From: Clostridia bacterium
Lineage (GTDB): Bacteria > Bacillota > Clostridia > TANB77 > CAG-508
Assembly (NCBI GenBank): GCA_029258515.1
Contig: JARHYK010000014.1
Location: 124,001 to 188,000 of the forward strand
Reading direction: 5' to 3'
DNA length: 64,000 nt
Below are positions 29,950 through 37,545 of the stretch, in pieces; position 1 is the stretch's first letter; each line of letters opens with the position of its first letter. Under the pieces are notes generated by a model. That model was given only the letters and a program-made list of their open reading frames with translations. It did no database searches and was not told where the DNA came from. The position numbers were made by a program, and so were the translations under genes.

Positions 29950-30951
29950 ATGGAAAAAATAGAGATACTATTAAGCAATCAATTTTATATTGATAAAATA
30001 TCAAAAACAAAATTAATAGCTTATAAAAGTTTTAGAAAAACAAAGAAAGATAAAGGATATGAATGGTACAATAAACGTGAAAAGTTAAAATTAGGAATAC
30101 AACTTTGTGATTTTTTAAACACAGATTTCCATTCATTTGAAAATGTTAAGAAATTTATTGACCAATACAGTGTATCTGCAATTGCTGAAATAGGAAAAGT
30201 TCCAATTTATACATATTATACAGAAAATGAATATAATGAAATGGTTAAAACTGTTATAGAGAAAACAGCTGACAAGATAAAGAAAATTCAAAAAGTATTT
30301 ATAAAAGATATTGAATACATATATAATTTAAATAATTTGGAAGAATTAAGTGAATTATCTCCAGCACAAAGATTATACATATTAAGAACTCGTAAAGAAA
30401 AATCTCAACTTTTAAATATTTTTGAACATAATAAAATCAAATTATGTTTTAATAATTTTGGAGATTTTAATCAATTTCCAATTACAAAAGAAGAAGATGC
30501 CCAAGAAATTGCAAAATTTGTACGAGATAGTGAAACATTACCATATAATTATCTTTGTGAAAACATTATACCTAGTTTTATTATAGAATTATTTGAATTA
30601 ACTTCAATAGAAAACATAGAAATCAAGAAATGTAAAAACTGTGGTAAATTCTTTGTACCAGAAAAAAGGTCTGATGAATTATATTGTAATAATATTTTTG
30701 AAAATGATAAGACTTGCAAAGAAGTTGGTCCTTTTAAAGTAAAACAAAAATTAATGGAAGAAAATAATGATTTAAAAGTTTATAGAAATGTTTATCAAAA
30801 GTTATTATTAAGAACAAGGAGAAATCCTGATAATACACAGTATGAAACAGAGTTTATAGCTTTTAAAAAGAAAAATGCAGAACTAAAAGAACAGATAAAT
30901 AATGGAGAATTATCTCAAGAAGAATATATCAATTGGCTGAATGAACAATAA
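29950..30951 (+). CDS. DUF6076-like zinc-ribbon protein
   Basis: 333 residues. Mostly helical, with a zinc-binding motif near residues 225-255 (KCKNCGKFFVPEKRS... YC... C) shared by DUF6076 proteins of Firmicute elements. Function unknown. First gene of a rightward cargo series with a GAGGTCGT ribosome site. Confidence 0.75.
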   Translation: MEKIEILLSNQFYIDKISKTKLIAYKSFRKTKKDKGYEWYNKREKLKLGIQLCDFLNTDFHSFENVKKFIDQYSVSAIAEIGKVPIYTYYTENEYNEMVKTVIEKTADKIKKIQKVFIKDIEYIYNLNNLEELSELSPAQRLYILRTRKEKSQLLNIFEHNKIKLCFNNFGDFNQFPITKEEDAQEIAKFVRDSETLPYNYLCENIIPSFIIELFELTSIENIEIKKCKNCGKFFVPEKRSDELYCNNIFENDKTCKEVGPFKVKQKLMEENNDLKVYRNVYQKLLLRTRRNPDNTQYETEFIAFKKKNAELKEQINNGELSQEEYINWLNEQ

Positions 30952-30978
30952 AAAAATATTATATGGAAAGGATTTAAT

Positions 30979-31743
30979 ATGGAAAAAAATATAGATATTT
31001 ATAATAAAAAAGAAGAATGTAACATAAAAGCAAAAATATTTTATAATGAAGAAGACTCAATAAAAACTAATATATTTATATTTTGTCATGGATATTGTAG
31101 TGGAAAAGGAAGTAATTCAGTTAAAATAGTAGCTAATAAATTATTAGAACATAATATTCCTTCTATTTCTTTTGACTTTCCAGGACATATAGATAGTGTG
31201 CAAGGTACTGATAAATTGAAAGTAGATGTATGTATTTCATATATAGATTCCATTATCGAATATATAAAAGAACAATATGGCGAAAATATAAAAATTTCAT
31301 TTTACGCTATTAGTTTTGGAGCATATATTCTCTTAAATAAACTTATAGGAGACAATAATGAATATGATAATATAGTTTTAAGATCTCCTGCTTTTAATAT
31401 GAAAGATATTTTTACAAATTGTTTATTAAAAGAAGAATTTGAAGAATATAAGAAGAATGGAAGAGCAAAGACTGGACATGGTGGAAAGATAATAGTACCA
31501 TATTCCTTTTATGAAGATTTAATAGAACATGATTTGTATATAAAATATAAAGAGAAAAGAAAGATACTTATAATCCAAGGAGATTTAGATGATACTGCTC
31601 CAATTACAGATACATATAAATTTATAACAAATAGACCTGAATTTGAACTTATAGAAATGAAAAATGTTAAACATCATATGGAACCAGATGAAATCTCTGT
31701 AAGTACTGAAATTATGCTAAAAAAGCTTGAAATATGTGATTGA
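30979..31743 (+). CDS. Alpha/beta hydrolase (serine aminopeptidase S33-like)
   Basis: 254 residues. Hydrolase fold with HG oxyanion loop (FCHGYCSGKGSNS), nucleophile Ser in YAISFGAYIL, acid Asp in IQGDLDDTAP and His in VKHHMEPDE. Probably a carboxylesterase or acyl hydrolase. 27 bases after the DUF6076 gene. Confidence 0.87.
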   Translation: MEKNIDIYNKKEECNIKAKIFYNEEDSIKTNIFIFCHGYCSGKGSNSVKIVANKLLEHNIPSISFDFPGHIDSVQGTDKLKVDVCISYIDSIIEYIKEQYGENIKISFYAISFGAYILLNKLIGDNNEYDNIVLRSPAFNMKDIFTNCLLKEEFEEYKKNGRAKTGHGGKIIVPYSFYEDLIEHDLYIKYKEKRKILIIQGDLDDTAPITDTYKFITNRPEFELIEMKNVKHHMEPDEISVSTEIMLKKLEICD

Positions 31744-31847
31744 CATAATTTGGAAAGAGTGATATAATAAGTATGTAGTTTTTACTATATTTAGCTAATT
31801 CGTTCCTATCTCTAAAATTTAAACTATTTATTTAAGGAGGACTATTT

Positions 31848-35767: not shown

Positions 35768-35768
35768 T

Positions 35769-36248
35769 ATGAAAAAAATTTTAAATTGGTTAGGTCAGGA
35801 AATGGAATTTGAAGGAAATTTGAGTTCTGCTATTGCTAACCATGAAATAACAAATTTTCCAGGTAGCTATGTATATGAAGATGAACTTTTTAATATTGCA
35901 ACAGACCCTGAAATTCCTATAAAGGGATATATGATACTAGCAATAAATAAGCCAATACGTACGATAACGGATTTAACAAAAGATGAAAGAAATAAATTAG
36001 TTGATTTATCAAATAGATTACTGGAAACTATGCATAATTGTGGATTTGAAAAAGTAATGATATATCAAGATGAGTCTAGTTCAGGATATTTACACATCAA
36101 TTTTATACCTAGTCATGAATGGATGAATCAATTTCATGCAAATTTTGGGAATATGGGGATTTATGCTAAAGAGGTTCTAAATGTAAGTGACGATTATAGA
36201 AAAGAACTTTTAAATTGTATTGATAAAATTAAAGAGAATTTTAAATAA
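35769..36248 (+). CDS. HIT-like domain protein
   Basis: 159 residues, paralogue of the C-terminal domain of the WG protein at 31848. Shares the frame NHEITNFPGSYVYEDELF... IPIKGYMILAINKP and a degenerate histidine site (LHINFIPSHEWM). One base after the NADAR-like gene. HIT proteins hydrolyse or transfer nucleotides; its histidine triad is partly lost, so its role is uncertain. Confidence 0.75.
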   Translation: MKKILNWLGQEMEFEGNLSSAIANHEITNFPGSYVYEDELFNIATDPEIPIKGYMILAINKPIRTITDLTKDERNKLVDLSNRLLETMHNCGFEKVMIYQDESSSGYLHINFIPSHEWMNQFHANFGNMGIYAKEVLNVSDDYRKELLNCIDKIKENFK

Positions 36249-36294
36249 GAGTATGCTCTATGTAGGGCATACTCTTATTATACGTATTGATTAA
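36249..36294. terminator. Terminator between convergent genes
   Basis: Inverted repeat GAGTATGCTC... / GGGCATACTC (about 36249-36278) followed by TTATTATAC, between the HIT-like and radical-SAM genes. Confidence 0.6.
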
Positions 36295-37545
36295 TTAGTA
36301 ATTTGTGATAAATTTCACAGCATCCAGGTTTTCCTGGAGTTTCAATACGCGCCACAAACTTTCCATAAAATTATTGTCTTTAAAAGAACAACATTCTGTA
36401 CAGTTTTTAGGACAGTTTTTCATAATGAATTTTGCGCGTTCACCATGCATTAATTCTTCAAGTTCACCTTTTCTCCCTTCTAATACTCCGTAGTGATAAT
36501 TAAGATCTGTGATTCTATCCCAGAGTACACAACACAGAAGATTAGTTCCATATAATGGAGGAGAGATGAGAGAACTCCAACATCTAGATGGCTTTTCTCG
36601 TTCTACCATGGCTCTGTTATTATAGATAGTATTTAAATCATTAGGAATTTGATAGTCCTTAAGTCCATAAGAATAAGCTGTTTCTTTTAATGATACGAGT
36701 TCTTCTATAACATCTAAAGAAACGATTTCATCTTTAACACTTTCAAAGTCTGGAATAAGGACTTTTACTCCTTGAAATACATCTACACCAACATTTGCGA
36801 TAGTTCTAATAAAATCATCATAATGTCCAGCATTTAATGGTCTAATGCAAGTTCTTGTACCAATCAATAATGAATTTTCTCTACCAATTTTTGCTCTGGC
36901 ATTACACAATTTATCTAAAAGATGAATTGCATCATCGTACGAAAAATCATTATTTTTTGATTTTTGATTGGAATAAGTTTTATAGGCATCTGCTGAAATT
37001 CCTGGAAAACTTATTCTTATAAAGGATGCATTTTCAACCAGACAATCTAATAATTTATCTGATATCTTGCTTCCTGTACTTACATAGACAATTCCCATAT
37101 TACACTTTTGATTAGCATGTTCTATCATACTAATTCTATCTTTATACAAATCTGGATTTCCTTCCCCACAAATTTCAAATCTAACGGTATTAAATCCTCG
37201 TCTAGATGAATAAGAAGAAATTTCATCCAATATGTTTTTGTATTTATCGATAGGAATGATAGGATATTTGATATGCTGATCTGCTACAGCCCATTTTCTA
37301 CTTGGACATGCTAAACAGTCTTTACAATCAAAATCGCAATACGGAAAATCTTTAGAACTTATTGAAAGAATTGGCATTTGGTCTATACCATGTTGAATGG
37401 CATACTTAATAGCTTCACAATAATCTTTTTCCGTTAAAGGATAGAGATGTTGTGGAGAGTGTGTCCGTGAAAACCAGATTGTTTTTCCAGTTTCCATGTT
37501 TACTGCTGAAAATTGTTTTGCTGTTAAAATACTATTTTTGTTCAT
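36295..37545 (-). CDS. Radical SAM enzyme with SPASM-like C-terminus
   Basis: 416 residues. The 4Fe-4S/SAM site is CDFDCKDC (Cys-x3-Cys-x2-Cys); the C-terminal Cys cluster CPKNCTECC fits an auxiliary cluster. Typical of peptide- or cofactor-modifying radical enzymes. Converges on the HIT-like gene. It carries a zero-frame CGG at codon 27 (37465-37467) with no shift, and mixed codon use, so likely recently acquired. The substrate is unknown; the nearby cargo suggests a nucleotide-related or peptide product. Confidence 0.87.
   Translation of the reverse strand: MNKNSILTAKQFSAVNMETGKTIWFSRTHSPQHLYPLTEKDYCEAIKYAIQHGIDQMPILSISSKDFPYCDFDCKDCLACPSRKWAVADQHIKYPIIPIDKYKNILDEISSYSSRRGFNTVRFEICGEGNPDLYKDRISMIEHANQKCNMGIVYVSTGSKISDKLLDCLVENASFIRISFPGISADAYKTYSNQKSKNNDFSYDDAIHLLDKLCNARAKIGRENSLLIGTRTCIRPLNAGHYDDFIRTIANVGVDVFQGVKVLIPDFESVKDEIVSLDVIEELVSLKETAYSYGLKDYQIPNDLNTIYNNRAMVEREKPSRCWSSLISPPLYGTNLLCCVLWDRITDLNYHYGVLEGRKGELEELMHGERAKFIMKNCPKNCTECCSFKDNNFMESLWRVLKLQENLDAVKFITNY

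Follow-up and report, generated by a model that had tools for sequence, protein, structure and literature searches.

What would bring genes for a hydrolase, two HIT-like proteins, a phosphoribosyltransferase (PRTase) fusion, a NADAR-like protein and a radical S-adenosylmethionine (SAM) enzyme together on one mobile element? The question is raised by a stretch of 64,000 nucleotides from a Clostridia bacterium (GenBank assembly GCA_029258515.1, contig JARHYK010000014.1, positions 124,001 to 188,000 of the forward strand), which is referred to here as the window. The initial annotation, made from the letters of the window, placed seven open reading frames at 29950-37545 and read them as cargo for nucleotide-based defence or a nucleoside-derived metabolite pathway. 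All seven are present there. Six of them, at 30979-37545, recur as a module: an alpha/beta hydrolase, a protein with WG repeats and a HIT-like domain (WG-HIT), an 834-residue fusion of a candidate transglutaminase (TG)-like part with a PRTase part, the NADAR-like protein, a second HIT-like protein (HIT2) and the radical SAM enzyme. The first gene, at 29950-30951, which had been left unnamed, encodes a DUF6076 protein and stands outside the module. Our reading, which we hold at slightly less than an even chance, is that the six-gene module is a cargo pathway of mobile elements for a small molecule that carries a ribosyl or glycosyl unit, in which the radical SAM enzyme works on a sugar-linked or nucleotide-linked intermediate.

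A profile of the radical SAM enzyme matched four of the 390 genomes of the window's family (G000, G119, G026 and G180). Matches to the TG-like part of the module type fell in the same four among 195 family genomes scanned, and HIT matches with E < 1e-60 fell in the same four among 190, of which 16 gave any HIT match at 1e-6. The 834-residue protein, used as a query, matched 27 of 195 family genomes, mostly over one half only. The four module-bearing genomes are spread over three genera, and the module is absent from most of the genomes sampled in the window's genus, a distribution that inheritance from a common ancestor does not account for. A wider scan for the radical SAM gene gave 12 loci: nine in Clostridia-type metagenome-assembled genomes (MAGs), one alphaproteobacterial (L071), one in an 'Actinomycetes' MAG (L073; 3.3 kb with 25% GC, probably misbinned) and one in a Bacilli MAG (L074). 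L068, L070 and L072 were taken as the same loci as those of G119, G180 and G026, respectively. Eight loci had full context (the window, L063, L064, L068, L069, L070, L071 and L072). Five further radical SAM loci stand outside this set: L065, L066, L067 and L073 are ended by contig ends, and L074 has the radical SAM gene without the module. The initial annotation had named scattered homologues without co-occurrence as the outcome that would speak against it; instead, the genes recur together, and the hydrolase, WG-HIT, TG-like and radical SAM genes are present in 8/8 full-context loci. Among 299 phylum genomes, the PRTase profile matched only the window's own genome, and across the class the HIT profile matched 3/291 genomes. 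Four scans of viral contigs gave no relative of the 834-residue protein, the radical SAM enzyme, HIT or PRTase. The 834-residue protein and the radical SAM enzyme had no match in the plasmids scanned, and two plasmids of Priestia have a distantly related HIT protein amid unrelated genes.

In the window the radical SAM gene is convergent to the other five module genes, which are separated by gaps of 104, 48, 77 and 1 bp. Single-strand operons are found in L071 (gaps of 9, 1, -23 and -11 bp) and L072 (67, 7, 4 and -26 bp). The L071 module consists of the radical SAM, hydrolase, WG-HIT, fused TG-PRTase and NADAR genes in one dense, partly overlapping operon with a GC content of 34.9% against 41.9% and 42.2% in its flanks. 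Such a packed operon with a GC shift points to horizontal transfer.

The module exists in two versions. Five of the eight full-context loci (the window, L063, L064, L071 and L072) carry PRTase and NADAR and no family 2 glycosyltransferase (GT2), whereas the other three (L068, L069 and L070) carry GT2 and no PRTase or NADAR; PRTase with NADAR and GT2 never occur together. A metallophosphatase gene is also present in two of the three GT2-version loci. The 834-residue query matches only its N-terminal half in G119 and in G180, and the whole genome of G119, which has the GT2 version, gives no NADAR match. The GT2-carrying locus L069 mixes the two versions. Its HIT2 is 72-81% identical to that of the PRTase version versus 43-46% to that of the GT2 version, and its hydrolase 70-75% versus 41-64%; its radical SAM enzyme is 70-74% identical to the GT2 version versus 58-61% to the window type. 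In the trees, L069 HIT2 groups within the window type as the sister of L065 (97/93), and the L069 radical SAM enzyme lies outside the window-type clade (100/100). Forcing the L069 radical SAM enzyme together with those of L065 and L066 was rejected (approximately unbiased (AU) test, p 7e-51), its placement as deep sister of the window type was not rejected (p 0.219), and forcing HIT2 and the hydrolase with the GT2 version gave AU p-values of 0.019 and 0.029; since the groups were picked after the identities had been seen, these p-values are indicative. The pattern suggests a joint exchange of the radical SAM and sugar-transfer genes in L069.

The fusion protein (32643-35147, plus strand) was divided by domain comparison and motifs into the TG-like part (residues 1 to about 440) and the PRTase part (about 447 to 834). 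The two parts are fused also in L063 and L071 and are adjacent separate genes in L072, and PRTase-only genes adjoin NADAR in other genomes of the family; thus, the two halves are separable. The C-terminal half is a type I PRTase. By itself the 834-residue protein had no significant Pfam match; among members of the PRTase family, 5/8 match Pribosyltran (PF00156; best 8.4e-9) and 6/8 match PRTase_2 weakly (best 0.0019). The motif that binds phosphoribosyl pyrophosphate (PRPP) reads IDDNVGSCNTM, and a sequence search of the PDB gave HGPRT-type matches for this part. Structure prediction, which the initial annotation had proposed as a check, located a PRTase fold at about residues 592-732. Foldseek gave APRT with a probability of 0.99 and no E-value < 0.001. 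VIA-align, which here and for the radical SAM enzyme covers Foldseek's own top chains only, gave 50 rows of PRTases, PRPP synthetases, one UMP synthase and one protein named by number only (best Z 7.7, 95 residues). Because a Z below 8 is weak alone, the PRTase claim is carried by the sequence motif and the Pfam matches. In the N-terminal half, Cys79, His110 and Asp130 are invariant in 12/12 rows, and Cys79 lies at the start of a predicted helix, as in transglutaminase-like enzymes. None of the 12 family members matches a transglutaminase Pfam, the PDB sequence search gave nothing meaningful for this half, and no structural match covered it, the fold search of the whole protein being filled by the PRTase part. 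Of the fusion proposed initially, the PRTase part stands by Pfam, motif and fold, and the other part may be called transglutaminase-like by its Cys/His/Asp motif.

The radical SAM enzyme (416 residues; 36295-37545, minus strand) has its CX3CX2C motif at Cys70, Cys74 and Cys77 in 12/12 aligned homologues. Its Pfam radical SAM score of 17.7 bits is under the cut-off of 29.5 and a sequence search of the PDB gave nothing for it, but the fold is clear in the predicted model (mean pLDDT, the predicted local distance difference test, 80.1). The closest VIA-align Z scores were those of SkfB (20.0, 292 residues aligned), SuiB (18.5), DesII (18.1, 339 residues), BlsE (17.6), viperin (16.1) and anSME (15.9), so that fold and motif confirm the gene as first named. 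Four C-terminal cysteines, Cys322, Cys339, Cys382 and Cys385, are invariant in 12/12 homologues and probably hold one auxiliary iron-sulphur cluster, as judged from the sequence. C-terminal cysteines together with a matching fold over most of the protein (SkfB, SuiB and anSME) place the enzyme with the SPASM/twitch proteins. All 12 members also match the NCBIfam viperin model (NF038283) at E <= 0.1, with a best value of 1.5e-8; since the window protein reaches 30 bits where the curated threshold is 180, we class it with the SPASM/twitch radical SAM enzymes and not with the viperins. One of the 12 members matches TIGR04466 (BlsE) at 0.0015 and one matches a mycofactocin maturase.

The viperin matches bear on anti-phage defence. 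In that case the radical SAM enzyme would make a modified nucleotide that poisons phage polymerases, in the manner of viperin and its didehydro nucleotides (ddh-NTP), and NADAR, HIT and PRTase would tune or detoxify it. Besides the viperin match in every member, a PADLOC match of the window enzyme to pVip (35.6 bits, 1.7e-9), the cargo position on a mobile element and the sporadic distribution agree with such a role. However, the viperin score is far under the curated value, the four invariant C-terminal cysteines are not known from viperins, and the fold agrees equally well or better with DesII and BlsE. Of the eight proteins run through PADLOC, no other had a credible match, and no known defence gene was seen in the module neighbourhoods, which were inspected by eye without a systematic scan. 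We regard defence as unlikely. Of the two roles offered by the initial annotation, the nucleoside-derived metabolite fits best, and defence is weakly supported by mobile cargo and the sub-threshold viperin match.

SkfB and SuiB among the closest folds raise another possibility, in which the radical SAM enzyme modifies a peptide or protein, as in the maturation of ribosomally synthesised and post-translationally modified peptides or by anSME, and the nucleotide enzymes decorate the product. The TG-like and serine hydrolase proteins could then serve as peptidases or ligases, and the radical SAM homologue of L074 sits with ATP-grasp ligases. On the other side, no small precursor gene common to the module loci was seen between the module genes, the window gaps leave little room for one, and the partners that vary between versions are nucleotide- and sugar-transfer genes. 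Peptide or protein maturation is, in our judgement, rather improbable.

The HIT-like pair consists of WG-HIT (248 residues; 31848-32594, plus strand; Pfam WG_beta_rep 70 bits) and HIT2 (159 residues; 35769-36248, plus strand). The HIT signal in Pfam is weak in single proteins: the window HIT2 scores 17.9 bits against a cut-off of 21.5, and 6/15 members match at E <= 0.1. The PDB sequence search gave one weak HIT match, in register, with an E-value of 0.58. Of the HxHxHxx triad, HIT2 keeps only the middle His and WG-HIT only the first. Ten free-standing HIT relatives outside the module, which align with the module HIT proteins, have a near-complete HIT motif (CxxC, a KRH-type His and H-x-H-x-W). 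Against these, the alignment rows, which leave out L066 and L068 as near-copies of L065 and L067, show complementary losses: WG-HIT keeps CxxC, the KRH-type His, the first His and W in 8/8 rows and has the middle His changed to Arg in 8/8, whereas HIT2 keeps the middle His in 7/7 rows and has lost CxxC, the KRH-type His and the first His in 7/7. In HinT and MccH the middle His acts as the catalytic nucleophile, and MccH, with HxHxK, shows that activity can survive a change at the third triad position (PMC7157772). The initial annotation suggested that both paralogues, with lost histidines, may bind rather than cleave. This holds for WG-HIT, which lacks the nucleophile and probably has a binding or scaffold role, but not for HIT2, which has it and may be catalytic. 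Pairing of the two as a heterodimer is an attractive inference. A bolder proposal, which we consider possible but doubtful, is a mobile pathway to a new radical-SAM-modified, nucleotide-like signal or antimetabolite, with ribosyl (PRTase and NADAR) and glycosyl (GT2) versions that are interchangeable and a HIT site split over a heterodimer, the nucleophile coming from HIT2 and the remainder of the site from the WG-repeat subunit. Two of the HIT relatives (L079:4089-5054, 321 residues, and L080:9591-10631, 346 residues) carry a long C-terminal extension and the H-x-H-x-W motif.

The NADAR-like protein (180 residues; 35225-35767, plus strand) belongs to the NADAR/Phage_30_3 family of N-glycosidase-like proteins by its match to PF08010 (90.6 bits, cut-off 36), as the initial annotation had it. 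Glu59 is found in 11/11 rows and Lys66 in 10/11, and from residue spacing we read them as the putative equivalents of E88 and K95 of the Escherichia coli C7 enzyme. The PDB sequence search gave nothing for NADAR. PADLOC gave no DarT match in the eight neighbouring proteins run, which are not every neighbour, and no ADP-ribosyltransferase toxin was identified beside NADAR. The hydrolase (254 residues; 30979-31743, plus strand) was likewise correctly named: it matches Hydrolase_4 (29.8 bits, cut-off 27), and Ser112, Asp204/205 and His232 are conserved in all rows covering them. In L069 a Sir2-family gene (L069:5584-6300) lies on the same strand 12 bp upstream of the module hydrolase, which may be chance.

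NADAR and PRTase also occur as chromosomal pairs, which adjoin a DUF84-like gene in three of the four listed loci (L035, L036 and L038, not L037). The DUF84 identity was confirmed by Pfam for L036, the one of the three tested, and a fifth pair, in L052, has no DUF84-like neighbour in the stretch shown. The trio of DUF84-like NTPase, NADAR and PRTase (L035:8195-10863, L036:8635-11129 and L038:8518-11144), found in genomes related to that of the window, resembles a separate unit for nucleotide house-cleaning or base exchange. The module itself might do such work, NADAR and PRTase stripping or replacing damaged bases and the rest repairing related damage with no dedicated product. The DUF84 neighbours favour this, as does the clearing of riboflavin intermediates by YbiA-type NADARs, described in PMC11543638. 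However, GT2 versions have no NADAR and PRTase nearby, G119 has no NADAR match at all, and radical SAM chemistry with a patchy mobile distribution would be odd for housekeeping; house-cleaning appears to us quite improbable.

A pathway to a nucleoside-derived metabolite fits best because PRTase with NADAR and GT2 replace each other and because the radical SAM fold is like those of DesII, BlsE and viperin, although also like those of peptide maturases. With co-inheritance, horizontal spread, operon structure, domain and residue content and the exchange of versions as the observations, we infer every substrate, the order of the steps and the product as follows. In the first step an acceptor would receive a phosphoribosyl unit through the PRTase part or, in the other version, a sugar through GT2; the radical SAM enzyme would then remodel the resulting sugar-linked intermediate. 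NADAR would cut an N-glycosidic bond for base removal, base exchange or clearance of a by-product. HIT2, perhaps paired with a nucleotide-binding WG-HIT, would make or break a nucleotidyl or phosphoramidate bond, and the TG-like Cys enzyme and the serine hydrolase would carry out acyl or amide chemistry. Several points weigh against this scheme. The best fold match of the radical SAM enzyme is a peptide maturase, with SuiB level with DesII, which leaves room for a peptide or protein substrate. HIT2 is missing from L071 and L072, the most divergent full modules and 2/5 of the PRTase-version loci, which weighs against an obligatory HIT heterodimer. The TG-like half is so called by motif only. 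Some copies are in decay, with the hydrolase split in L068 and the TG gene frameshifted in L064, and no transporter, ATP-dependent ligase or self-resistance gene is common to the module loci. The exchange rests on eight loci and one recombinant, with tested groups named after the identity table had been seen, and in the radical SAM tree the L067+L069+L070 clade (GT2 type) has support of only 55/28.

The mobile element proposed by the initial annotation was found. It is a mobilisable integrative element of 13.6 kb, inserted at tRNA-Pro, and holds all seven genes of 29950-37545. Its ends are an exact 13-bp direct repeat, at 27546-27558 on the left and 41141-41153 on the right, the latter being the 3' end of tRNA-Pro. 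A tyrosine integrase lies near the left end (27688-29118, minus strand; Phage_integrase 92 bits), and a MobA/VirD2-type relaxase (38482-39000, minus strand; Relaxase 132.7 bits) and a NikA/MobC mobilisation protein (38997-39320, minus strand; NikA-like 57.7 bits) follow the module. A RepA_N-like replication initiator at 40232-40843, within the element, means that the element may replicate after excision. The Rfam scan of the window gave four tRNAs and nothing else. The DUF6076 protein (333 residues, plus strand; PF19553 46.6 bits) was considered as a module member and ruled out, since 0/39 related loci searched gave a match; it is a gene of the element only. L063 adjoins a serine recombinase, and two element genes are common to L066 and the window.

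Relatives outside the module often lie among genes for nucleotide handling, which favours the metabolite pathway, as do the PRTase and NADAR genes of the module and the DUF84-like neighbours of their chromosomal relatives. In several loci, judged by eye, HIT relatives have HD hydrolases, small kinases, NUDIX and NTP-pyrophosphatase-like genes as neighbours. Kinase-fused PRTase relatives have D-G-N in the PRPP motif, and in L039:4281-6527 and L041:9231-11435 a RIO/APH-like kinase domain, a PRTase whose PRPP motif is changed and a HisA-like barrel form one fused protein; in L041 a HAD-type gene adjoins this fusion. All six long standalone TG relatives (L040 and L042-L046) have a purine nucleoside phosphorylase and a small serine hydrolase, which we take to be RBBP9-like, within two genes. 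Because they come from two genera only, they are not independent, and the other ten TG-only loci have no such pairing. In L074:328-13114 a distant radical SAM homologue (45%) lies in an operon-like run, possibly a natural-product cluster, whose other genes encode two aminotransferase-like proteins related to each other, a pair of ATP-grasp ligases, kinases, NUDIX proteins and an ABC transporter.

If the metabolite pathway is real, these few genes are a compact and testable set behind a new class of metabolite derived from nucleotides, in uncultured bacteria of the gut type. The module would also offer a natural system for a radical SAM enzyme that changes in step with a sugar-transfer function, and an example of paired HIT proteins that have decayed in complementary ways. 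Should defence prove true, viperin immunity would gain a multi-gene relative.

No description of this gene combination was found in the openly licensed literature, as far as titles and the beginnings of abstracts go, but several known systems share parts of it. Ter-associated PRTase pathways, predicted to make a nucleoside-like metabolite according to a title cited in PMC7824862, share the weak PRTase_2 matches of module-family PRTases, but no TerD, PELOTA or other Ter genes were recognised in the module. HinT and MccH share HIT-like sequence and the middle His kept in HIT2; HIT2 differs from them by the lost first triad His and WG-HIT by the lost nucleophile. DesII, from deoxysugar natural products, acts on a sugar-linked nucleoside or nucleotide substrate. 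DesII and BlsE share the radical SAM fold at only 12-14% identity, and no desosamine or blasticidin genes were recognised in the module. BlsE also acts on a sugar-linked nucleoside or nucleotide substrate (PMC3715490). The N-glycosidases NADAR/DarG1, YbiA and T4 30.3, whose chemistry is covered in PMC11543638, PMC11833690 and PMC9503650, share with the window NADAR the Phage_30_3 match, the catalytic Glu and, in most rows, the Lys, but here NADAR is paired with PRTase and a radical SAM enzyme. Finally, the radical SAM nucleotide dehydratases viperin and SAND (PMC9642334) share the radical SAM core, CX3CX2C and the fold with the module enzyme, which lies far below the family cut-off and differs by its extra invariant C-terminal Cys and its multi-gene context.

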